IMG/VR virus record: IMGVR_UViG_3300031972_001979
Coordinates: 1 to 34,466 of that record
Origin: a virus
Strand: one strand, 5' to 3'
Length of the DNA: 34,466 bases
Positions 1 through 12,329 of the stretch are shown piece after piece. Within the stretch, counting starts at the first letter, position 1; every line of letters starts with the position of its first letter. Position numbers and translations under genes: made by a program. The notes beneath the pieces are model-generated. The model had not been told where the DNA came from. It saw nothing but the letters and a program-made list of their open reading frames with translations, and ran no database searches.

Positions 1-77
1 TGCAACTACAGTACACTGTTATCAGAAGTATAAAGCAGGTAAACGAGTCAATGCACTGCAATCTATTATTACAGTCA
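1..77. repeat. Terminal direct repeat, left copy (circular assembly overlap)
   Basis: These 77 bases are identical to 34390-34466. The reading frame at the right end continues in phase through this overlap into the frame at the left end, so the repeat is the join of a circular map rather than two genomic copies. The length of 77 equals a common maximum k-mer of de Bruijn assemblers, which leave such an overlap on circular contigs. A natural terminal repeat of 77 bp inside a gene is less likely. Confidence 0.9.
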
Positions 78-229
78 TTGTTATTTTCTTTTGGACAGCT
101 TCAATGTACAGAGAACTCTTTCTCGGAGGAGACACAACCTCTCCTTATCTTTATGCCATGTTCGGTATCGTTCAAGGTGTAGCGTTTGGTATGTCATTCG
201 AGAATATTATTAAGTTTATTAAGAAATAA
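1..229 (+). CDS. Holin-like small membrane protein (3' part; 5' part is at 34337-34466)
   Basis: This is the downstream part of a 93-residue protein whose ATG is at 34337. Joined across the circular overlap, it starts MELKYMLALTHS and ends ENIIKFIKK. It has three hydrophobic stretches, at about residues 6-22, 38-54 and 66-82, separated by short charged loops, and a basic C-terminus. Small size, several membrane helices and a place directly between two cell-wall-hydrolase-like genes are what is expected of a holin that permeabilises the inner membrane at lysis. I cannot assign a holin family from sequence alone. The stop TAA (227-229) overlaps the ATG of the next gene by one base, suggesting translational coupling. 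Confidence 0.6.
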   Translation, partial: ATTVHCYQKYKAGKRVNALQSIITVIVIFFWTASMYRELFLGGDTTSPYLYAMFGIVQGVAFGMSFENIIKFIKK

Positions 230-699
230 TGATTAAGCTCACGATAAAAGCATTAAAAATACCAAGAGTACAATCAATGATATTCTGGGCTATTCTTATT
301 CCTGTTATTTCTATCGGGTTCAAGTGGGCATTTTATACAGTCATGCCTGCAACTTTCTTCTTTGAGTATTACTCTGTAGAGCCTACTAAGGCTATCTTCC
401 AAGACGGAGAAGACCTTATTTTTGAGTCACACTTTCAAGTAAGCAGGAGTCTCAACTTCCACTATAACGATATTCTACGTTGTAACATAGATAACTATGA
501 TAGTGCCTTTCACTCTCAAGTGTTGGGGAAGATTTCTCTGCCAAGTATCGGAGAACGTACTTCTATCTGGACATACAACCACACACCTCCTTCTGCACCT
601 AGAACGTGTTTCCTAGACACGACCATAAGAGCAGAGCTACCTTACAATGTAACTAAAGTTCAGAAGATAAGAAGCGAGTCATTTATCATTAAGAAATAA
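229..699 (+). CDS. Membrane-anchored protein of the lysis cassette, unknown function
   Basis: A 156-residue protein with a short basic N-terminus and one strong hydrophobic segment at about residues 17-40 (MIFWAILIPVISIGF), which looks like an uncleaved signal anchor. The remaining 115 residues are polar and would face outside the cytoplasm. They contain two cysteines (C85 and C127) that could pair. The ATG overlaps the stop of the holin-like gene (TAATG), and the papain-like lysin follows 6 bases later. The position and topology would fit a spanin-like or lysis-regulating protein. No lipobox is visible and I recognise no family, so the function is open. Confidence 0.65.
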   Translation: MIKLTIKALKIPRVQSMIFWAILIPVISIGFKWAFYTVMPATFFFEYYSVEPTKAIFQDGEDLIFESHFQVSRSLNFHYNDILRCNIDNYDSAFHSQVLGKISLPSIGERTSIWTYNHTPPSAPRTCFLDTTIRAELPYNVTKVQKIRSESFIIKK

Positions 700-705
700 T
701 CTAAT

Positions 706-1749
706 ATGAAAGATCAAAATCCAGGAGCAATAAGAGACTATAGAAGCAGAGAAGATAAGAAAAAAGACATCCTCTTCAAAGAGATTGTAGCAAGCACTTC
801 TCCTGTTGAGTGGGAAGAAAAGAAGCCTAAAGAATGGCGGTCATTTCCTATTCGCAATCAAAACGGATCAGGAAGCTGTGTTGCTATGACAATGGCAAAG
901 TTACTTGGTATCTTAGAATGGCAACGTGGAGGAGAGTTTGTAGAATTTTCTGCTTCTGATATTTACCAACGAAGATCTAATAAGAACTGGGGTGATGGAC
1001 AAGGAATGATTGGAACTGATGCTTTCGATATTGCACGAAAATATGGTGCTACCTTAGAGCAGTTTATGCCTTCTATGAATCTCACAGAGAAACAGATTAA
1101 CGAAGTGCCTCGCAAGGAATATCACGAAAGGATAGGTTCTGCTTTTACAATAGACAACTACGTACAGTTTACTCCTAAGACCTCTTTTGAAGAGATTGCA
1201 TCGACTATCCAAAAAACAGAGAAGGGGGTAATGGTATGGTTTAAGTTTGATTATAAAGAGTGGTCAGACATCCCCGAGGTTATTGTAACTAACCCGAGAT
1301 TACACCACTCAGTTACCGCAGTAGACTTCACTCTTTTAGATGGTAAAAAGTATCTTGTTATCGAGGACTCATGGGGAGAGAAGAGAGGAAAAGAAGGAAG
1401 GCGTTTAATTTCAGAAGACTTCTTCCGGCAACGAAACACTTTTTGTGCATACCCTTTATCTTTCAAGTTGAATCCAATTATCACTGATCAGAAAGTAAGA
1501 GTTATCCACAAGTTTAAAAAAGATATGGAGTTTGGAGAGAGGAGTGAGGAGGTAAAGTTGATGCAACAAGTACTCCAACAAAAAGGGTTCTTCCCTAAAA
1601 ATGTTGATTGTACGGGGTATTATGGAGCCTTAACAGCAAGAGCAGTCCTTGCCTTCCAAAAGGAGTATGATGTCGCTCCTGAGACTGTTTTGAATCGATA
1701 TAAAGGACATTACGCACACAAAGCGACGCGTGCATATCTAAATAAATAG
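706..1749 (+). CDS. Papain-like (C1 family) cysteine peptidase with C-terminal peptidoglycan-binding domain; candidate endolysin
   Basis: A 347-residue protein in two parts. Residues about 35-250 look like a papain-fold peptidase. The oxyanion Gln and catalytic Cys lie in NQNGSGSCVA (Q52, C58, the six-residue spacing of papain). The catalytic His is in HHSVTAVDF (H201), and the third residue is in IEDSWGE, where Asp (D221) replaces the usual Asn. Residues about 270-347 resemble a PG_binding_1 domain (FGERSEEVKLMQQVLQ, then YYGALTARAVLAFQ), which anchors enzymes to cell wall. There is no signal peptide, so export would need the holin. It ends the lysis cassette and is followed by a terminator. 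It most likely cuts peptide bonds of the cell envelope. Amidases and muramidases are the usual phage lysins, so a C1-type lysin is uncommon. A role against host proteins is an alternative. Confidence 0.75.
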   Translation: MKDQNPGAIRDYRSREDKKKDILFKEIVASTSPVEWEEKKPKEWRSFPIRNQNGSGSCVAMTMAKLLGILEWQRGGEFVEFSASDIYQRRSNKNWGDGQGMIGTDAFDIARKYGATLEQFMPSMNLTEKQINEVPRKEYHERIGSAFTIDNYVQFTPKTSFEEIASTIQKTEKGVMVWFKFDYKEWSDIPEVIVTNPRLHHSVTAVDFTLLDGKKYLVIEDSWGEKRGKEGRRLISEDFFRQRNTFCAYPLSFKLNPIITDQKVRVIHKFKKDMEFGERSEEVKLMQQVLQQKGFFPKNVDCTGYYGALTARAVLAFQKEYDVAPETVLNRYKGHYAHKATRAYLNK

Positions 1750-1758
1750 TGCTATACT
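1750..1758 (+). promoter_or_regulatory. Possible extended -10 promoter (TGCTATACT)
   Basis: TGCTATACT fits the TGnTATAAT pattern seen repeatedly in this genome, with one change. It begins at the lysin stop codon. A transcript from about 1765 would be only some 55 nt before the terminator at 1795-1819. It is weaker than the other sites. Confidence 0.3.
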
Positions 1759-1794
1759 TACAAGTAAGAATATCTGCGAAAGTATGTTTTCCAC

Positions 1795-1819
1795 AAAGTC
1801 ACTACACCAGTGGCTTTTT
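1795..1819 (+). terminator. Rho-independent terminator after the lysis genes
   Basis: The stem AGTCACT (1797-1803) pairs with AGTGGCT (1809-1815) through one G-U pair, with loop ACACC and a T tract at 1815-1819. It closes the late transcript 45 bases after the lysin stop. The extended -10 of the next promoter starts immediately behind the T tract. Confidence 0.75.
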
Positions 1820-1820
1820 G

Positions 1821-1829
1821 TGTTATAAT
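1821..1829 (+). promoter_or_regulatory. Extended -10 promoter (TGTTATAAT) for the 1878 gene
   Basis: A perfect TATAAT at 1824-1829 with TG one base upstream. No good -35 is seen, as is usual for extended -10 promoters. The expected start near 1836 gives a leader of about 42 nt before the ATG at 1878. Confidence 0.6.
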
Positions 1830-1877
1830 TAAAATTAAGAATATGTTTCTAAATATTTTTACAAAAAAGTATGTATC

Positions 1878-2102
1878 ATGAAAAGGGAATATGGTATACA
1901 CAAGAATTATGAGAATTATTTACAATCTCGAATAGAGAGGTGTAAAGCTAACCTCGTAAAATATCAAGACAATGGAGAGAAGTGTATACATATAACCAGT
2001 CAGATAGTTATGGATCAGAGGGCAATAAGAAAATATAAGAGCAAGAACCATCCTAGCAACCCTTGGCTAAGCAACTCATTCAGTGGAAAACTAATTGAGT
2101 GA
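1878..2102 (+). CDS. Hypothetical small basic protein
   Basis: A 74-residue protein rich in Lys, Arg, Tyr and Asn with no membrane segment and no family I recognise. Residues 8-36 (NYENYLQSRIERCKAN) look helical. It stands alone on its own transcript unit: a terminator and the extended -10 promoter at 1821-1829 lie upstream, and another such promoter begins 4 bases after its TGA stop. It has no Shine-Dalgarno sequence, like nearly all genes here. Its isolated promoter suggests expression apart from the late genes. The frame is supported by position and promoter rather than homology. Confidence 0.5.
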   Translation: MKREYGIHKNYENYLQSRIERCKANLVKYQDNGEKCIHITSQIVMDQRAIRKYKSKNHPSNPWLSNSFSGKLIE

Positions 2103-2105
2103 GAG

Positions 2106-2114
2106 TGTTATAAT
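2106..2114 (+). promoter_or_regulatory. Extended -10 promoter (TGTTATAAT) of small RNA B
   Basis: TATAAT at 2109-2114 with the TG dinucleotide in extended -10 position. The predicted start near 2121 falls exactly at the base of the first hairpin of the RNA at 2121-2196. Confidence 0.6.
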
Positions 2115-2120
2115 GTTTAA

Positions 2121-2196
2121 GTGCCAGTTTTTACTGTAGAGGGCTGGCATGGCTAATAAAACAAAAAGGAGTACTAACTATGTTAGTGCTTTTTTT
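2121..2196 (+). ncRNA. Candidate small structured RNA B (about 76 nt)
   Basis: A short transcript is bounded by an extended -10 promoter and a strong terminator, with no convincing reading frame. The 5' hairpin pairs TGCCAG (2122-2127) with CTGGCA (2144-2149) around a 16-nt loop. A single-stranded linker follows, then the terminator hairpin at 2170-2190. An 18-codon frame from 2149 runs through the terminator and looks accidental. The function is unknown. It resembles a regulatory or decoy RNA in layout only. Confidence 0.5.
2170..2196 (+). terminator. Strong terminator of small RNA B
   Basis: AGTACTAAC (2170-2178) pairs with GTTAGTGCT (2182-2190), nine pairs with one G-U and a 3-nt loop, followed by a run of T to 2196. 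An A-rich stretch precedes the stem. The next promoter starts two bases after the T run. Confidence 0.85.
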
Positions 2197-2197
2197 G

Positions 2198-2206
2198 TGT
2201 TATAAT
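2198..2206 (+). promoter_or_regulatory. Extended -10 promoter (TGTTATAAT) of small RNA C
   Basis: TATAAT at 2201-2206 with upstream TG, directly behind the terminator T run of RNA B. The expected transcript start is near 2213. Confidence 0.6.
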
Positions 2207-2212
2207 AAAAAA

Positions 2213-2280
2213 GGAAAAATATAGATATAAGATTTACACACAGAGAAATCCCCAAGATTAGTTGGCGGATTTTTCTTTTA
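2213..2280 (+). ncRNA. Candidate small RNA C (about 65-70 nt)
   Basis: This lies between the promoter at 2198-2206 and a hairpin-plus-T-tract terminator at 2246-2274. The 5' half is A/G-rich and looks unstructured. There is no reading frame of note. The function is unknown. Confidence 0.45.
2246..2274 (+). terminator. Terminator of small RNA C
   Basis: AAATCC (2246-2251) pairs with GGATTT (2267-2272), and CCAA (2252-2255) with TTGG (2262-2265). C2266 is bulged, the loop is GATTAG, and a T-rich tract follows. Confidence 0.75.
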
Positions 2281-2282
2281 TT

Positions 2283-2291
2283 TGTTATAAT
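2283..2291 (+). promoter_or_regulatory. Extended -10 promoter (TGTTATAAT) of small RNA D
   Basis: A third copy of TGTTATAAT, with the hexamer at 2286-2291, again directly behind a terminator tract. The expected start is near 2298. Confidence 0.6.
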
Positions 2292-2297
2292 AAAGTA

Positions 2298-2393
2298 GTC
2301 CGAAAAACACTAGACCTAATCATCTAAGACCTTTGTGGGCGCGCTGAAGCATGAATTTTTCTTAGAAAGACTATCCCTTGTGGATGGTTTTTT
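2298..2393 (+). ncRNA. Candidate small structured RNA D (about 96 nt)
   Basis: Bounded by the promoter at 2283-2291 and the terminator at 2371-2393. Possible internal pairings are CTAAGA (2324-2329) with TCTTAG (2360-2365), or alternatively GAAAAA (2302-2307) with TTTTTC (2356-2361). The two share base 2361, so they exclude each other and could be a switch. A GC-rich GGGCGCGC (2338-2345) sits in the apical part. No tRNA cloverleaf can be drawn and no frame is convincing. Confidence 0.45.
2371..2393 (+). terminator. Terminator of small RNA D
   Basis: CTATCC (2371-2376) pairs with GGATGG (2382-2387) with one G-U pair and loop CTTGT, followed by six T (2388-2393). Confidence 0.8.
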
Positions 2394-2427
2394 CTTTTCA
2401 ACAGTTCCTTTATTGATACATGAGGAG

Positions 2428-2433
2428 TATAAT
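2428..2433 (+). promoter_or_regulatory. -10 promoter element (TATAAT) for the 2451-2900 genes
   Basis: A consensus TATAAT 18 bases before the ATG at 2451, without the TG extension. The predicted start near 2440 gives a leader of about 11 nt. Confidence 0.5.
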
Positions 2434-2450
2434 AGAACATAGATAGCTCT

Positions 2451-2567
2451 ATGAAACACGGAAAACAAAAAGTAATTGTCGGAACGCTCTCACTAGCGTT
2501 TGTTGTTGTGGTAATGTCTTCACGTTACTTGAACCCCAAAAACTGGATATATGTCCCAAGGAACTAG
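2451..2567 (+). CDS. 38-residue single-pass membrane peptide
   Basis: A frame of 38 codons beginning MKHGKQKVIVGTLS. A basic N-terminus is followed by a hydrophobic segment (about residues 8-23, VIVGTLSLAFVVVVMS) and a polar tail, the usual form of a small inner-membrane peptide. It is the first frame behind the TATAAT at 2428 and overlaps the HNH-like gene by 17 bases, so the two may be translationally linked. No family is recognised. The correct phase with the promoter and the clear topology favour a real gene, but its length leaves chance possible. Confidence 0.45.
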   Translation: MKHGKQKVIVGTLSLAFVVVVMSSRYLNPKNWIYVPRN

Positions 2568-2841
2568 ACTTTGTACTTGTACAAAATGTGGAGAGGAAAA
2601 ACCTCAACAAAAACATCACTTCTATCCTCAGTGTCATTTTGGATCAGGAAAGAAGAACTGTCACACAATGGGCTTATGTCCGGAGTGCCACTTTAAGATA
2701 GACTACATTATCCTAGCTGTGGAATCGTATTTAGGAGATGTAGACTTCGGCAAGAGGGCAAAGCTCTCTAAACATAGTTATGATAAAATTCATCGCTACT
2801 GGCTGAAGGACTCAAAAACAATCCAACTTTTCTTTTCATGA
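2551..2841 (+). CDS. Small HNH-like zinc-binding protein
   Basis: A 96-residue Cys/His-rich protein. CTKC (10-13), KHHFYP (21-26), N36 and LCPECH (42-47) fall in the order of an HNH nuclease core: a CxxC knuckle, a catalytic His pair, Asn, then a second CxxC followed by His. The arrangement suggests a treble-clef HNH fold with one zinc ion and a metal-dependent DNA-cleaving site. The C-terminal half is basic and helical. It overlaps the membrane peptide upstream and shares an ATGA overlap with a 20-residue frame downstream. Stand-alone phage HNH proteins can be homing, packaging-associated or host-directed nucleases. Here it sits among small-RNA modules far from the terminase genes. A non-catalytic zinc finger is the alternative. 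Confidence 0.6.
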   Translation: MSQGTRLCTCTKCGEEKPQQKHHFYPQCHFGSGKKNCHTMGLCPECHFKIDYIILAVESYLGDVDFGKRAKLSKHSYDKIHRYWLKDSKTIQLFFS

Positions 2842-2900
2842 ACTTACAACTTGAATTAGATCTTGATCTCGAAGGAGAGCTTCCTCTCCGGATCAAATAA
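2838..2900 (+). CDS. 20-residue acidic leucine-rich peptide
   Basis: The ATG overlaps the stop of the HNH-like gene as ATGA. The peptide (MNLQLELDLDLEGELPLRIK) alternates Leu with acidic residues. The overlap favours reinitiation, but the frame is very short. It may be a tail peptide or only chance. Three hairpins follow directly. Confidence 0.3.
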   Translation: MNLQLELDLDLEGELPLRIK

Positions 2901-2904
2901 TCAC

Positions 2905-2985
2905 AAGGGTATAACCCTTAGGCCGAACAGGTATCGCTACCTCAGGCATAAATAATCGTACTGCTGGGTATAGTGGTACGATTTT
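2905..2985 (+). terminator. Three tandem hairpins ending in a terminator-like stem
   Basis: Hairpin 1 pairs AAGGGT (2905-2910) with ACCCTT (2914-2919). Hairpin 2 pairs AGGTA (2929-2933) with TACCT (2938-2942) around TCGC, and can be extended by GCC with GGC. Hairpin 3 pairs AATCGTAC (2954-2961) with GTACGATT (2976-2983), eight perfect pairs followed by TTTTCTCTC. The last is a plausible terminator of the 2451-2900 transcript. The first two give the 3' UTR extra structure. Confidence 0.6.
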
Positions 2986-2992
2986 CTCTCCG

Positions 2993-3001
2993 TGTTATAA
3001 T
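2993..3001 (+). promoter_or_regulatory. Extended -10 promoter (TGTTATAAT) of small RNA G
   Basis: TATAAT at 2996-3001 with upstream TG, behind the terminator-like hairpin at 2954-2985. The expected start is near 3008. Confidence 0.6.
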
Positions 3002-3007
3002 AGAGAA

Positions 3008-3085
3008 GCTAAAGGTTTTAATAGTTCCTTTAGTAACGCCTTGTCTTGCAAACAAGAAAAGACTCTTACGAGGAGTCTTTTTTTT
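3008..3085 (+). ncRNA. Candidate three-hairpin small RNA G (about 78 nt)
   Basis: The first hairpin begins at the predicted transcript start: CTAAAGG (3009-3015) with CCTTTAG (3027-3033). The second pairs CTTGT (3040-3044) with ACAAG (3052-3056). The third is the terminator at 3057-3085. There is no reading frame. It is the most completely structured of the small RNAs in this region. Confidence 0.5.
3057..3085. terminator. Bidirectional terminator between small RNA G and the early minus-strand genes
   Basis: AAAGACTC (3058-3065) pairs with GAGTCTTT (3073-3080) with a 7-nt loop and eight T in the plus direction. Read on the minus strand, the stem is followed by TTTTCTTG, so it can also stop the early operon that ends at 3134. 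Confidence 0.8.
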
Positions 3086-3133
3086 GTTCATTTAACTTTA
3101 GAATAAAAATATTCCTAAAAAGAATGTTGCCAT

Positions 3134-3241
3134 TTAGTTAGTTTTTACATAATCCTTTCCGAGAAATTGTATCGCTTCTCGTTCAGATTGTTCTTGTAAG
3201 TAATCAAGTCTTTTTTGGTGTTCTTCTTCTGATTGTGACAT
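3134..3241 (-). CDS. 35-residue protein with REAIQFLG motif
   Basis: A short frame (start MSQSEEEHQKRLDY) whose C-terminal half SEREAIQFLGKDYV closely matches SDREAIQFLGEEYV of the small protein at 8981-9142. This makes both credible as real genes and as paralogues. It is charged and probably helical, without membrane segments. Its ATG lies 2 bases after the stop of the upstream gene at 3243-3461, as expected in this tightly packed minus-strand operon, of which it is the last gene. The function is unknown. Confidence 0.6.
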   Translation of the reverse strand: MSQSEEEHQKRLDYLQEQSEREAIQFLGKDYVKTN

Positions 3242-3242
3242 A

Positions 3243-3461
3243 TTAGTTTTCAAACTCTCTACCCAGAGTATAACTCCAAGCACATTCTTCTAAAGCCTTC
3301 TTAAAATCTTCAGCTTTCCAGTCTTCATAATCACTTTCATAAGTATCTTCAGCAAAGACTTTACCATCGACTGTTATCTTGAAGTCGTAGCTGTAGTTCC
3401 CAAAGTATTCACAGTCTGGAAATACCTCAATATTTTTAATTTCAACTGTTATTGTTTTCAT
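3243..3461 (-). CDS. Hypothetical acidic protein
   Basis: A 72-residue acidic protein. It opens with alternating residues typical of beta strands (MKTITVEIKNIEVFP, then YDFKITVDGKVF) and ends with a probable helix (DWKAEDFKKALEECAW). A beta-alpha mini-domain of this sort is common among early phage proteins that bind host factors, but I recognise no family. It lies 2 bases after the upstream gene and 1 base before the next ATG, so it is part of the early operon. Confidence 0.65.
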   Translation of the reverse strand: MKTITVEIKNIEVFPDCEYFGNYSYDFKITVDGKVFAEDTYESDYEDWKAEDFKKALEECAWSYTLGREFEN

Positions 3462-3463
3462 AG

Positions 3464-3778
3464 TTAGTTTTCCTTAGCGTTGTTAATCTTCTCTTTGAGT
3501 TTGGCGATTTGGTCGTCTAGTGCTTTGTTGTACCCAATACACTTGTTATTTCTGTCTTGAAACTCGTTCTCTGTTTCAGCACTCGATGTGATGCCTTCAA
3601 CCTTTTTACTTTCCTCCAACTCCTCTATCTGTGACTCCCACTCTTTAATGACTGCGTGTTCTCCATACTCTATAAGAGCTTGTGAGAATACTTCAAAATC
3701 ATACTTTCCGATGTCCAACATTCCGTCAGTGCTGTTCTTCTGGACTATTTCTTCTATCTTGATTAGGTCGTGTTGCAT
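3464..3778 (-). CDS. Hypothetical coiled-coil protein
   Basis: A 104-residue, highly charged protein. Residues about 36-60 (HAVIKEWESQIEELEESKK) and 80-104 (NKALDDQIAKLKEKINNAK) have heptad-like spacing of hydrophobic residues and probably form coiled coils, which points to an oligomer or adaptor. There is no signal peptide or enzyme motif. It lies in the early minus-strand operon 6 bases after the 28-residue zinc-finger peptide. The function is unknown. Confidence 0.65.
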   Translation of the reverse strand: MQHDLIKIEEIVQKNSTDGMLDIGKYDFEVFSQALIEYGEHAVIKEWESQIEELEESKKVEGITSSAETENEFQDRNNKCIGYNKALDDQIAKLKEKINNAKEN

Positions 3779-3784
3779 ATTTTT

Positions 3785-3871
3785 CTAATTATCTACTCCA
3801 CACTCAAGGGAGCAGTATGGTTTATAAGGTGATTGTTCTGGTACTTCTACGTTACATTCTGGGCATGTCAT
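3785..3871 (-). CDS. 28-residue single zinc-ribbon peptide
   Basis: A tiny frame, MTCPECNVEVPEQSPYKPYC and eight more residues, with CxxC (C3, C6) and CxxxC (C20, C24), enough to bind one zinc. It matches the third zinc unit of the 129-residue protein at 4506-4895, where the shared pattern is NCPVEVPEDHPVYVDYCSLRC. This similarity, and its start directly at the end of the upstream gene, make it a likely real gene despite its size. The pattern YCSxxC is typical of small treble-clef or ribbon fingers. The function is unknown. Confidence 0.6.
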   Translation of the reverse strand: MTCPECNVEVPEQSPYKPYCSLECGVDN

Positions 3872-3872
3872 A

Positions 3873-4265
3873 TTACTTGTTGTTATCCATTAGATTGTTC
3901 TCTAGGAGGTGGATGAGCATTTTTGCTCGTGCTTCTGCTTCGTTCAATTCCATAAATTCACTTGTCTGACTATTTGTGTAAGAGACTAGCCAGTCACCTC
4001 CTTGCATTTTTATGCTAGATAAATCTGAACTATTGTTTATCTCACCTGGCAACAACTCCCCTAGCTCGCTTGATGTGAAGGCTGAAACTTTTGTCGCATA
4101 ACCTGCCTTAACAGCGTCAATCTCTCCGTAAGAAAGTGTCCACATATCTTGCTGTTCTGTAAATGCCAAGTCACAATCCCAATAAAACAAGCTCTCCTGC
4201 TCCACTCCTAGCTCCCTCAATCTCTTTGCACTTTCAAGTGTACATACTTGGTCTTTGAGTTCCAT
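3873..4265 (-). CDS. Conserved phage hypothetical protein (AFTSSELGELLP type)
   Basis: A 130-residue protein starting MELKDQVCTLESAKRLRELG, with FYW at 27-29 and SAFTSSELGELLPGE at about residues 61-75. I remember this layout (a KDQVC-like start, AKRLKELG, FYW, then AFT.AELGEMLP) from a widespread family of uncharacterised proteins in phages and prophages, often found near replication genes. That recollection has not been checked by a search. It has no membrane segment. It probably has a mixed alpha/beta fold with a C-terminal helix (ELNEAEARAKMLIHLLEN). It sits mid-operon. The function is unknown in the family. Confidence 0.75.
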   Translation of the reverse strand: MELKDQVCTLESAKRLRELGVEQESLFYWDCDLAFTEQQDMWTLSYGEIDAVKAGYATKVSAFTSSELGELLPGEINNSSDLSSIKMQGGDWLVSYTNSQTSEFMELNEAEARAKMLIHLLENNLMDNNK

Positions 4266-4276
4266 ATGTTATTTAC

Positions 4277-4360
4277 TTAATTTTTAGAGTAAAATTCCAT
4301 TGCTTTCTTTGCTTCTTCTTCTGTAATCTCTATGTCTTTGTTTGTTTTGTATGTTTTCAT
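4277..4360 (-). CDS. 27-residue hypothetical peptide
   Basis: A frame beginning MKTYKTNKDIEITEEEAKKA and ending with FYSKN. It fills the gap between two operon genes in the same direction, with normal spacing to both. A short beta hairpin followed by a helix is likely. The phage-like composition and tight spacing support it. Its length keeps the confidence modest. Confidence 0.45.
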   Translation of the reverse strand: MKTYKTNKDIEITEEEAKKAMEFYSKN

Positions 4361-4366
4361 AATCAC

Positions 4367-4504
4367 TTACCTTAACTCTCTCATGTAAACATCACCTTCT
4401 TTAGTCACAATATAGAGAATATATTTTTCCTCACGAATATGGGAAATGTTCTCTATTTTATTTCCTTCTGAGTCCTGGAACTCCATTTTTTTCATCTTAA
4501 TCAT
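4367..4504 (-). CDS. 45-residue hypothetical beta-strand protein
   Basis: A frame beginning MIKMKKMEFQDSEGNKIENI and continuing with alternating hydrophobic residues (EEKYILYIVTKEGDVYM), the look of a small antiparallel beta sheet. It starts one base after the stop of the 129-residue zinc protein and ends 6 bases before the next ATG, so spacing fits the operon. No family is recognised. Confidence 0.55.
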   Translation of the reverse strand: MIKMKKMEFQDSEGNKIENISHIREEKYILYIVTKEGDVYMRELR

Positions 4505-4505
4505 A

Positions 4506-4895
4506 TTACCTATTATTAGCATCTTCCTCACAACGGAGGCTACAATAATCTACGTACACCGGATGATCTTCCGGAACTTCTACTGGACAGTTCGGGTTTT
4601 GACATATTCTAGCCATATTACTTTCTTTAATTTGTTTAATAGTATACCGATCTCTACACGCAATAGTGCAAAAGAATTCATCTCCATCCCTCACACCTTT
4701 GTTTGCACTACAACGTACAAAACATTTGTCACAGATGGCTTTTGATTTCTTTATATGATCCTTCTTCTCTTTTTTAACATAAGCGGAACACTCATCGCTA
4801 CAATATACATGGTTCCAACTTCTTGCTTGAAATACTTTTTCACACCCTCTTTTTTTACACTCCTTTCTCGGGTAAAAAGCTTTTTCCATACACAA
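4506..4895 (-). CDS. Triple zinc-finger protein
   Basis: A 129-residue protein with three successive zinc-binding units: C13/C18/C32/C36, C55/C58/C76/C80 and C98/C103/C118/C122. Each closes with an aromatic-Cys-x3-Cys signature (YCSDEC, FCTIAC, YCSLRC), as in FCS/MYM-like and other treble-clef fingers. Basic linkers (KKEKKDHIKKSK) separate the units. Such proteins bind nucleic acid or host proteins. The third unit is duplicated as a separate 28-residue gene at 3785-3871. The start at 4895 gives MCMEKAF, and an inner ATG two codons later (4889) is equally possible. The function is unknown. Confidence 0.7.
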   Translation of the reverse strand: MCMEKAFYPRKECKKRGCEKVFQARSWNHVYCSDECSAYVKKEKKDHIKKSKAICDKCFVRCSANKGVRDGDEFFCTIACRDRYTIKQIKESNMARICQNPNCPVEVPEDHPVYVDYCSLRCEEDANNR

Positions 4896-4898
4896 ATT

Positions 4899-5201
4899 TT
4901 AATCACTAATAATGCTTGATTGTTCGATTAGGTTAGGACTTATAACTCCTTGTACTGTATCAAGCTCCTTGTATAGAACCTTTCCTTGTTCTATTAAGTA
5001 AGACTCTTTCAATAGTAATTCTGCTTCTCTCGATACCTTGTACTGATCAAAAGTGTTTGCACACTTCTCTCCGTTATAACAAAACGTAGGACTATAATCT
5101 CTAATAAGTGGTTCTGGCGCGAAATGATTATAGACATTATATACTACGACTGCATGAATGATGATCAAATAAATGATCTTAATTTTTTTCTTTTTCTCCA
5201 T
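4899..5201 (-). CDS. Hypothetical protein with N-terminal membrane anchor
   Basis: A 100-residue protein with a strongly basic start (MEKKKKIK) and one hydrophobic helix at about residues 9-24 (IIYLIIIHAVVVYNVY). It continues with a polar domain of about 70 residues that carries two cysteines (C41, C47) able to form a disulfide. The positive-inside rule places this domain outside the cytoplasm. An early membrane protein of this kind could act in superinfection exclusion or inhibit host envelope functions, but nothing in the sequence decides this. It starts one base after the next upstream operon gene. Confidence 0.65.
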   Translation of the reverse strand: MEKKKKIKIIYLIIIHAVVVYNVYNHFAPEPLIRDYSPTFCYNGEKCANTFDQYKVSREAELLLKESYLIEQGKVLYKELDTVQGVISPNLIEQSSIISD

Positions 5202-5202
5202 A

Positions 5203-5493
5203 TTATTTTTTTGCTGGTTTAAATTGAATAAATTCTGTTGACGATGCTTGAGCCACTCCCGACTTCTCTTCCTTGTGTTTGAGAATAGCTAGATTTTCTT
5301 TAGCCTTCTCAACTTTATCTGAATAAGAATAAGAACTTCTACTTGATACACAGAGGGTTCCTCTGTCATCTTGAATGTTTTGTATGTTTTTCTTTTTGAA
5401 GTCTTCAAGAATTTTAGAAGCAAGATCTTTTTTCTTTGCTTCGAGGGCCTTGTACTCCCTGCTTACTTCGATGTATTGATCATAAATTTTCAT
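5203..5493 (-). CDS. Conserved phage helical protein, unknown function
   Basis: A 96-residue protein: an N-terminal helix (YDQYIEVSREYKALEAKKKDLASKI, broken into heptads), a short beta unit (RGTLCVSSRSSYSYSDKVEKA) and a second helix ending GVAQASSTEFIQFKP. I recall this order (a helix, then a TYSDKV-like segment, then KGIA.A..T.YL.F) from many small phage proteins of unknown role near recombination or nuclease genes. This is from memory, not a search. It is the first gene behind the promoter and operator at 5526-5554 and probably leads the early operon running down to 3134. Confidence 0.7.
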   Translation of the reverse strand: MKIYDQYIEVSREYKALEAKKKDLASKILEDFKKKNIQNIQDDRGTLCVSSRSSYSYSDKVEKAKENLAILKHKEEKSGVAQASSTEFIQFKPAKK

Positions 5494-5525
5494 AGATGTT
5501 GTTAGTGTTATTGATTAACCCTTAA

Positions 5526-5554
5526 AGTATATCATGCGAACTGCTCGCATACAA
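5526..5554 (-). promoter_or_regulatory. Early promoter with embedded 17-bp palindromic operator
   Basis: On the minus strand, -35 TTGTAT (5554-5549), a 17-bp spacer and -10 TATACT (5531-5526) give a start near 5519, ahead of the gene at 5493. The spacer is nearly filled by the inverted repeat ATGCGA/TCGCAT (5534-5550). The same TGCGNNCTNCTCGCA core occurs in the divergent promoter at 6449-6487, so one regulator could control both. The leader is about 25 nt. Confidence 0.7.
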
Positions 5555-5573
5555 GTAGTTTTCCACAAGGTGG

Positions 5574-5708
5574 TTATTTATCCGCTAGTTTTATGATCTT
5601 ATCAGCTTGTGCCTGACTTAATCGTATGCCTCGATAAGAACTCTTAGGTAGATTGTTCTTCTTAATGTTCCTTGCTTTTAGATATCTCTTTCGTCTTTTA
5701 TTATTCAT
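5574..5708 (-). CDS. 44-residue strongly basic protein
   Basis: A frame beginning MNNKRRKRYLKARNIKKNNL and ending in a helical RLSQAQADKIIKLADK. The N-terminal half is almost entirely Lys, Arg and Asn, which suggests nucleic-acid binding. The C-terminal half looks like one amphipathic helix. It follows the PD-(D/E)XK nuclease gene by 41 bases and ends 20 bases before the -35 of the operator-bearing promoter at 5526-5554. It is a candidate for a small DNA-binding regulator, but no recognised fold supports that. Confidence 0.55.
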   Translation of the reverse strand: MNNKRRKRYLKARNIKKNNLPKSSYRGIRLSQAQADKIIKLADK

Positions 5709-5749
5709 TTTCTTTTTTATGTTTATCCCAACGTTTTTTTGCTAATTCT

Positions 5750-6442
5750 CTAAAATACTCCTTCCCCTCCGGCTTCTTCTCGTGGCGAAGTCTTCCTAGC
5801 TTCTGGTAGTGTTCCTTGATTATCTTTTTTGAATAGTCCATAGTCTTCTTGAATTTCTTTAATTGTTTTAATAATTTTCTCCTTTATCAAATCTCTCTCC
5901 CACTGTTCTATTTTCCTATAATAATAGAAGACTTTTCCGGTGAGCTGTAGGCTGGTGTTTCTAAATATTGTTCCATTATACGTTACGTTTTTTTTCTCAG
6001 TCTCAATATGTGCAAGCCAACATCCATCCTTTACAGAACCTGTAGACTCCTGGATGAGCATTGAATACCAGTCTAATTGTTCATGCTTCTCCACTGTCTT
6101 TTGGTTCCAAAAATGATTTCCTTTGGCGTTTTTTCTCCCTGTCTTGTATTCTCCAAAACACCTTGCTGTAGGAGAATATGTATCTAAATAAGCTAAGAGC
6201 TTAACGTCAGTTCCTTCTATGTTTGTCAGGATCTTATGTTCCATGACCGCATACTTCTTTATGTGAGCAAAGTCAGGATCTCCATCTTCTAACTTCTGAG
6301 CAACCTTCTTCCCAAAGAAAGTCTCTGCGTTCATTTTAATCTCTTCGTTTAAATAATATCTCTTTCTGTATGAGGCTGGACTACTATTCCATAACTTATA
6401 TTGAGAGTAAGAAAAGTAAGGCCTTGGCATTGTTTTGGACAT
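5750..6442 (-). CDS. PD-(D/E)XK nuclease, RecB/Cas4-like
   Basis: A 230-residue protein with the signature of the RecB/Cas4-like PD-(D/E)XK nucleases. The N-terminal SYSQYKLWNSSPASYRKRYY (11-30) is the typical opening helix. D87 (YLDTY), E98 and K100 (GEYKTG) are the metal-binding and catalytic residues. Q122 and Y126 (EQLDWY) form the QxxxY motif. I see no iron-sulfur cysteine cluster, unlike full Cas4. It probably processes DNA ends in phage recombination or degrades host DNA. It is transcribed divergently from the ssDNA-binding protein gene, a natural recombination pairing. The -10 box TAAGAT ends 6 bases before the ATG, so the transcript is likely leaderless. Confidence 0.75.
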   Translation of the reverse strand: MSKTMPRPYFSYSQYKLWNSSPASYRKRYYLNEEIKMNAETFFGKKVAQKLEDGDPDFAHIKKYAVMEHKILTNIEGTDVKLLAYLDTYSPTARCFGEYKTGRKNAKGNHFWNQKTVEKHEQLDWYSMLIQESTGSVKDGCWLAHIETEKKNVTYNGTIFRNTSLQLTGKVFYYYRKIEQWERDLIKEKIIKTIKEIQEDYGLFKKDNQGTLPEARKTSPREEAGGEGVF

Positions 6443-8980: not shown

Positions 8981-9142
8981 TTATCTTACGTATTCCTCAC
9001 CAAGAAACTGAATAGCTTCTCGATCAGATTTGTTTTTAATAAACTCTTGCCTTCGTTCGTACTCAACTGTCGCTCTGCTTTGTCCTGGAGCATTGTACTG
9101 TCCTGTCATGTCTCTGTAAGTATCTAGTGTTTCTCTATCCAT
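8981..9142 (-). CDS. 53-residue protein with REAIQFLG motif
   Basis: A charged, probably helical protein (MDRETLDTYRDMTGQYNAPG and so on) whose C-terminal SDREAIQFLGEEYVR matches SEREAIQFLGKDYVK of the 35-residue protein at 3134-3241. The two are paralogues or share a functional peptide. The N-terminal half differs. It starts 2 bases before the YozE-like gene ends and stops 5 bases before the next ATG, as in a tightly packed operon. The function is unknown. Confidence 0.6.
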   Translation of the reverse strand: MDRETLDTYRDMTGQYNAPGQSRATVEYERRQEFIKNKSDREAIQFLGEEYVR

Positions 9143-11610: not shown

Positions 11611-11860
11611 AAAAGTAGCACGTAAGTAGCACTGCGGTAGCACGACTAAAATCCTGTTTAAGCCTTATATTGCAACGTTTAACGGAAGTTGCACGAAAAG
11701 TGGCGGTAGCACGACTTTTTCTATACTTTACTACAAAATTAACTAGGGTATTAAAATAATAATTTATATAAATATTTTAATGCTACCGCTACTTTAGGGA
11801 AAAGAGCCTTAAATAGCAAGCCGAAATCGGTAGCAGGACTGGTAGCACTACCCGCTACCT
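11611..11860. other. Iteron-like repeat region; candidate replication origin or packaging site
   Basis: This region lies in the 364-base gap between the leftward primase operon and the rightward terminase operon. Direct copies of (A/G)GTAGCAC are at 11614, 11625 and 11636 (exact 11-bp period), 11705 and 11841. Variants are at 11687 (AGTTGCAC) and 11829 (GGTAGCAG), and inverted copies at 11781, 11788 and 11854. The central part, 11750-11781, is nearly pure AT and contains the inverted repeat ATTAAAATA/TATTTTAAT. Repeats on the helical period beside an AT-rich stretch resemble an iteron origin bound by the primase-helicase. The position next to the small terminase gene makes a pac site the alternative. 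Confidence 0.55.
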
Positions 11861-11879
11861 CTTTTCTTTCCATTTCTTG

Positions 11880-11888
11880 TGGTATAAT
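11880..11888 (+). promoter_or_regulatory. Extended -10 promoter (TGGTATAAT) of the packaging genes, leaderless
   Basis: The hexamer TATAAT (11883-11888) is followed by six bases (AAGGAT) and then the ATG at 11895. A normal start 7 bases downstream of the -10 would be the A of the start codon, so the message is predicted to lack a 5' leader. Confidence 0.65.
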
Positions 11889-11894
11889 AAGGAT

Positions 11895-12329
11895 ATGACT
11901 AAAAAAAATAAAAATGGTCGGCCTCTGAAGTATAAGGAAAGCTTCAATGATGAGGTAGACAAATATCTTGATCAATGCCAAGACTCTGTTGAGGAGTTTC
12001 ACAAAACGCGCGGAGATAAGTCTGACACATATGAAAGGGTTCAGAAGGTTAAGCTCCCCACCATTGTAGGGTTCTCAGTTTATCTAGGTGTAAACGAGAC
12101 GACTGTCTACGATTGGGCTAAAAAATATCCCAGCTTTTCCCAGTCTTTGGGGAGGATTAAAGACGTTCAGCATCAAAAATTGATTGATGGAGGGGTATCA
12201 GGAACCTATAATTCTACTATTGCTAAACTCATGTTGTCTTCTAATCATGGCTACAAGGAGAAGAGCGACATAACGTCTGACGATAAGCCGGTTCCTATTC
12301 TTGGGATCGACTTCGGTAAGGAAGAATAA
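11895..12329 (+). CDS. Terminase small subunit
   Basis: 144 residues from the ATG at 11895. The frame is open back to 11877, but that would overlap the promoter. It has a basic start (MTKKNKNGRPLKYKESF), a helix-turn-helix KLPTIVGFSVYLGVNETTVYDWAKKY (written here over two motifs: LPTIVGFSVYLG and ETTVYDWA), and GVSGTYNSTIAKLMLSSNHG towards the C-terminus. This order is common in small terminase subunits that recognise phage DNA and start packaging. It is directly upstream of the large subunit, 2 bases apart, and next to the repeat-rich region, which it may bind. Confidence 0.85.
   Translation: MTKKNKNGRPLKYKESFNDEVDKYLDQCQDSVEEFHKTRGDKSDTYERVQKVKLPTIVGFSVYLGVNETTVYDWAKKYPSFSQSLGRIKDVQHQKLIDGGVSGTYNSTIAKLMLSSNHGYKEKSDITSDDKPVPILGIDFGKEE

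Follow-up and report, generated by a model that had tools for sequence, protein, structure and literature searches.

Small RNA clusters behind phage lysis genes

Small RNAs of phages are usually described singly. In phiNM2 of Staphylococcus aureus Newman, three independent rightward sRNAs were mapped after the amidase gene (Bronsard et al., 2017, PMC5496865). The srn_9342-9346 region was termed a "condensed sRNA cluster" and called "unusual", and its srn_9343/9344 pair was proposed to be of the type I toxin-antitoxin kind (PMC5496865). Two of the transcription starts, P2 (1141525) and P3 (1141676), were mapped by RACE/TEX and lie 151 nt apart (PMC5496865). When we inspected the phiNM2 record (L238), we found, past the amidase gene, two occurrences (4636 and 4788) of a terminator followed by a T tract and the extended -10 element TGTTATAAT. 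Since this spacing of 152 nt compares with the mapped 151 nt, we conclude that the T-tract/TGTTATAAT junction coincides with the RACE-mapped sRNA starts.

A second row is found in the S. aureus phage phi12 (L239). Here, SprX (RF02672) lies at 3382-3531, past the amidase gene (Rfam, E 1.6e-43). Its promoter consists of a T tract and TGTTATGAT, and TGTTATACT stands directly after the SprX terminator. The published coordinates of S629 translate to L239 3209-3337, a unit between the amidase gene and SprX (PMC5826253), and S629 is identical to SprY (PMC9266662). SprX and SprY are trans-acting regulators of spoVG/ecb and RNAIII, which are host RNAs (PMC9266662, PMC12197685).

Several further RNA elements were noticed in these phages. 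In phi12, Listeria rli62 matches L239 3490-3619 below the Rfam threshold (49 bits against a gathering score of 83, E 3e-6), and the match overlaps the SprX end and the next unit. The Rfam DUF3800-I RNA closes the post-lysis rows of phi11 (L237 2667-2782) and phiNM2 (L238 4954-5070). Furthermore, a structured RNA with the core GAGAATTCATATG...GTAGG occurs in phi11 (L237 2501-2660), in Kayvirus 812 (L236 3001-3059) and in L175 (10376-10434). Staphylococcal siphophages have it in common (96.6% over 59 nt) with kayviruses, where it lies near the genes for tRNA and holin/endolysin. Paired changes were seen by eye, and the L175 copy has no Rfam match at the gathering score.

The window, its genes and its possible host

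The window, by which we mean the entire stretch of DNA analyzed, comprises the 34,466 bases of a virus record. It carries a direct terminal repeat of 77 bases at its ends and is therefore probably complete. The genome encodes terminase, primase/helicase and structural genes, and Shine-Dalgarno sequences are missing from most of its genes. A blastn search of the first 8 kb against phage records gave no match. The nearest contig found, the only one recovered from IMG/VR with the primase as query, has 90% identity in the terminase and 86% in the primase and stops short of the array region. Queries with the peptidase, the HNH-like gene and a minus-strand gene recovered no relatives of the region from IMG/VR. 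Two relatives of the terminase are carried by MAGs of 0.7-0.8 Mb, and the sampled genomes from the phylum of one of these MAGs are mostly about 0.9 Mb in size, resembling Patescibacteria. Patescibacteria are possibly the host of the phage, although the seed genome was the sole match when 145 genomes were searched for the terminase. Nothing indicated that the row is a host chromosomal feature, the three-promoter pattern being present in 0 of 380 genomes of the same phylum.

The row begins at position 1750. The last gene ahead of it, on the same plus strand, encodes a putative endolysin (706-1749) with papain-type peptidase and peptidoglycan-binding domains (Pfam; PF00112, E 2.6e-10, and PF01471, E 2e-8), which matches the PHROG 1493 endolysin via its peptidoglycan-binding part. 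Three plus-strand ORFs lie within the row. The first encodes 74 aa (1878-2102) and has no family match in Pfam or PHROG. The second encodes a hydrophobic peptide of 38 aa (2451-2567) and the third a 96-aa HNH-like protein (2551-2841), which is recognized by Cys/His pairs at motif level only and has no match in Pfam or PHROG. The small peptide/HNH operon is likely transcribed from a TATAAT without TG (2428-2433). The 3' end of this operon is structured (2904-2983, z -4.01) and has two hairpins and a terminator, the extra structured stretch at 2904-2945 being followed by its own terminator at 2954-2983. ARAGORN finds no tRNA in the window, and a phage tRNA cluster or tRNA remnants were discarded as an explanation.

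Two side observations concern other genes of the phage. The minus-strand ORFs at 3134-3283 and about 9000-9140 have the common ending REAIQFLG[KE][DE]YV[KR] and are apparently paralogues. At 11841-11895, a terminator is followed by TGGTATAAT and the small terminase starts 7 nt past the -10 element, which would result in a nearly leaderless transcript.

Promoters and terminators form a non-random row

The TGTTATAAT element is present in five copies in the window, all on the plus strand and all inside 1821-3001 (1821-1829, 2106-2114, 2198-2206, 2283-2291 and 2993-3001). The chance expectation is 0.49 copies, and five copies were reached in none of 100 shuffles. At the genome's five other TGNTATAAT sites the element reads TGG (n=4) or TGC (n=1). 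The array promoters therefore have a distinct variant in common (5/5 in the array versus 0/5 elsewhere; one-sided Fisher test, 1/252).

According to the preliminary description, every promoter of the row lies directly behind the T tract of the previous terminator. Indeed, the promoters at 1821, 2198 (unit 3) and 2283 (unit 4) stand right after a T tract, and that at 2993 (unit 6) likewise comes after a terminator. The promoter at 1821 would serve the 74-aa ORF. The claim does not extend to the unit 2 promoter at 2106, which has no terminator ahead and is preceded by the 3' end of the 74-aa ORF. A further, weaker extended -10 element, TGCTATACT (1750-1758), belongs to unit 0.

Terminator-like sites are enriched as well, with 13 in positions 1-6000 versus 3.8 in shuffles. 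Within the row, terminators were found at 1792-1820, 2164-2196, 2365-2393, 2954-2983 and 3054-3084, and a bulged one at 2242-2276. We defined a strict unit as TGNTATAAT with a terminator 35-130 nt on. The genome contains three such units, all within one 1.3-kb stretch. Among 160 shuffled genomes, 148 had none and 12 had one, and there were never more. Adding the bulged terminator and the weaker promoter at 1750 to the strict units yields the full list of four or five frameless short units, 2121-2196, 2213-2280, 2298-2393, 3008-3085 and probably 1765-1820, each closed by an intrinsic terminator.

The units lack reading frames and differ in folding

The units had been described as having no convincing reading frame, and we can confirm this, since no frame inside any unit is longer than 11 codons. 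Unit 0, listed earlier with a "perhaps" at 1765-1819, is a probable small RNA of 1765-1820 according to terminator scan and fold. It has a terminator (1792-1820) and no internal frame, although its promoter is TGCTATACT instead of TGTTATAAT. The predicted RNA of unit 2 (2121-2196) forms a 12-pair hairpin ahead of its terminator at 2164-2196 (fold -28.9 kcal/mol, z -4.65). Unit 3 (2213-2280) has an unstructured 5' half, and its z of -4.62 is due to the bulged terminator. Fold and terminator scan delimit unit 4 (2298-2393), which ends in the terminator at 2365-2393. Unit 6 (3008-3085) again consists of a hairpin and a terminator, at 3054-3084 (z -3.03).

The preliminary description had also called the bodies hairpin-rich. 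This is true for 2121-2163 (z -2.57, p 0.016) and 3008-3050 (z -1.8, p 0.046), which fold better than shuffles, but not for 2213-2241 (z 0.25) and 2298-2364, which fold no better. Consequently, the whole-unit z-scores stem mostly from the terminators.

Similar rows occur in several groups of phages

An IMG/VR scan for three spaced extended -10 elements yielded 45 loci. Most of them turned out to be repeats within coding sequence or promoters in tandem that lack terminators, and were rejected; genuine arrays were found in L095, L107 and L118. The antirepressor of the L107 prophage is similar to antirepressors from lactobacillus and enterococcus phages, and between the integrase and repressor of L107 we counted, by eye, about eight or nine back-to-back units. 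The same prophage contains a second chain with two short promoter-terminator units (L152 5577-5793). A second IMG/VR scan used paired T-tract/extended -10 junctions, with a scrambled -10 element as control. It revealed 60 loci, 25 of which have terminators ahead of both promoters; the control gave 10 loci, none of them with terminators ahead of both promoters. Many of the 25 terminator-bearing loci belong to one staphylococcal group, and by inspection about ten groups are left.

Lysis genes adjoin the array in the staphylococcal group, in L217/L230, in L220 and in the streptococcal group (L178), and they lie just downstream of it in L194/L202. By inspection, arrays elsewhere are often, not always, beside lysis genes. 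Matches to the staphylococcal arrays were found in 321 phage records, and to the streptococcal arrays in 330. In a conserved Staphylococcus unit the hairpin is kept via one compensatory change, one pair being altered on both sides. The view that such a cassette is unusual was thus only half right, since staphylococcal, streptococcal, lactobacillus-like and metagenomic phages carry comparable ones.

We tentatively suggest that a series of promoter-sRNA-terminator cassettes closing the late region might be a general, unnamed feature of phages from several host groups and a platform to evolve and exchange host-targeting RNAs. The window would then be an example from a lineage without described phage sRNAs, possibly a phage of Patescibacteria. 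The DNA signature is a terminator T tract with an immediate extended -10 element, repeated every 70-100 nt and often beside lysis genes, and it would allow RNA clusters to be found from sequence alone. It ties together the phiNM2 cluster, SprX and SprY of phi12 and the signals past the TP-J34 lysin gene, and its presence in the window suggests that a phage of poorly known lineage carries short RNA genes. In a limited search of open-access papers, we found no statement that rows of this kind are present repeatedly among phages and recognizable from DNA.

A probable cluster of small RNA genes and competing explanations

In our judgment, four to five (perhaps six) small RNA genes, each independent of the others, probably form this cluster past the lysis gene, and their RNAs most likely act in trans on host RNAs. 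The preliminary description had already seen a serial small RNA cassette, and this is borne out by the non-chance architecture, the absence of frames and a T-tract/TGTTATAAT junction that corresponds to mapped sRNA starts in another phage. For the window's own phage, we infer transcription of the row, its timing and an action on host RNAs. Host RNA polymerase would start at each extended -10 element and halt at the next intrinsic terminator, 56-96 nt on, so that each RNA would be a separate and compact transcript. An extended -10 element does not need a separate -35 element and could therefore directly follow the preceding terminator. By analogy with SprX and SprY of phi12, the RNAs most likely pair with or titrate host RNAs. 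Regulation of host genes, one of the functions proposed initially, accordingly has a precedent in phi12. When phage targets near start codons were searched, no unit performed better than shuffled RNAs (all p > 0.1).

Four other readings are less likely than a small RNA cluster. The units might be promoter-terminator shells of lost small accessory genes (morons, with their own promoter and terminator), from which functionless RNAs are still made. The unit bodies have no similarity to each other, just the promoter region and short repeats being common to the units, and two of them show no excess of structure over shuffles. In addition, the row is absent from the terminase relatives (80 loci, 32 records), and the promoter at 1821 would still serve an ORF, all of which would fit such remnants. 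However, short units of similar size recur in unrelated phages, and the staphylococcal counterparts are kept across hundreds of records, some of their RNAs having demonstrated functions. We consider an origin as remnants unlikely.

It is more doubtful still that the row is a transcription barrier, with stacked terminators and head-on promoters insulating the late operon, which runs rightward, from the early operon, which converges on it leftward and ends at about 3134. The position would suit this, since the row sits exactly between the convergent gene blocks. Furthermore, the terminator stem of unit 6, the last of the row, was detected on both strands in the terminator scan and might serve the convergent minus-strand operon as a terminator too. 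Yet, a series of strong extended -10 elements is unnecessary for insulation, most terminators in the row face rightward RNAs only, and similar rows elsewhere are not always located between convergent operons.

It is improbable that the RNAs act as decoys or against host defences, for instance as RNA anti-CRISPRs or as sponges that soak up a host RNase. Short, hairpin-bearing and separately expressed RNAs would fit this role, but the unit sequences are not repeated and show no Rfam similarity. There was no Rfam match in the window at the gathering score and nothing convincing in 1740-3140 at E 10, and neither search returned the SprX (RF02672) or DUF3800-I (RF02969) model. The decoys for RNases or chaperones and the anti-defence RNAs suggested initially found no support. 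That the 38-aa membrane peptide and its surroundings form a type I toxin-antitoxin system or a set of tiny-peptide genes is very improbable: a hydrophobic ORF does lie inside the cluster and the phiNM2 pair has been proposed to be of this type, but the units have no frame above 11 codons and none shows strong or long antisense complementarity to the peptide gene.

Comparison with known clusters

One of the closest counterparts of the probable small RNA cluster in the window is that of phiNM2. In both, consecutive independent sRNA units without frames on that strand lie directly past a lysis gene, the amidase gene in phiNM2, and the identical TGTTATAAT is found behind a T tract. The distance from an RNA end to the next start is 20 nt in phiNM2 and a predicted 17-18 nt in the window. 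Unlike the window, the cluster of this staphylococcal temperate phage comprises three longer rightward RNAs (131-314 nt) and two antisense RNAs, and no sequence similarity between the two was noted. The SprY-SprX row of phi12 likewise consists of consecutive promoter-RNA-terminator units after the amidase gene, whereas its RNAs are 129-150 nt long and have known host targets, and the window has no SprX match. In Streptococcus thermophilus phages such as TP-J34, terminators, -10 signals and stem-loops are annotated right after the lysin gene, but the units of this region alternate with small ORFs. The array of L107 and the metagenomic arrays of L194, L217 and L228 have back-to-back promoter-short RNA-terminator units as in the window, and their placement differs (lysogeny region, lysis module, beside integrase). 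Since no Rfam family matches in the window, the staphylococcal rows are a precedent for the architecture and a possible function, not a case of homology. We conclude that the non-random cluster in the window belongs to a type that experiments have already revealed in staphylococcal prophages, and that its sequences are new.
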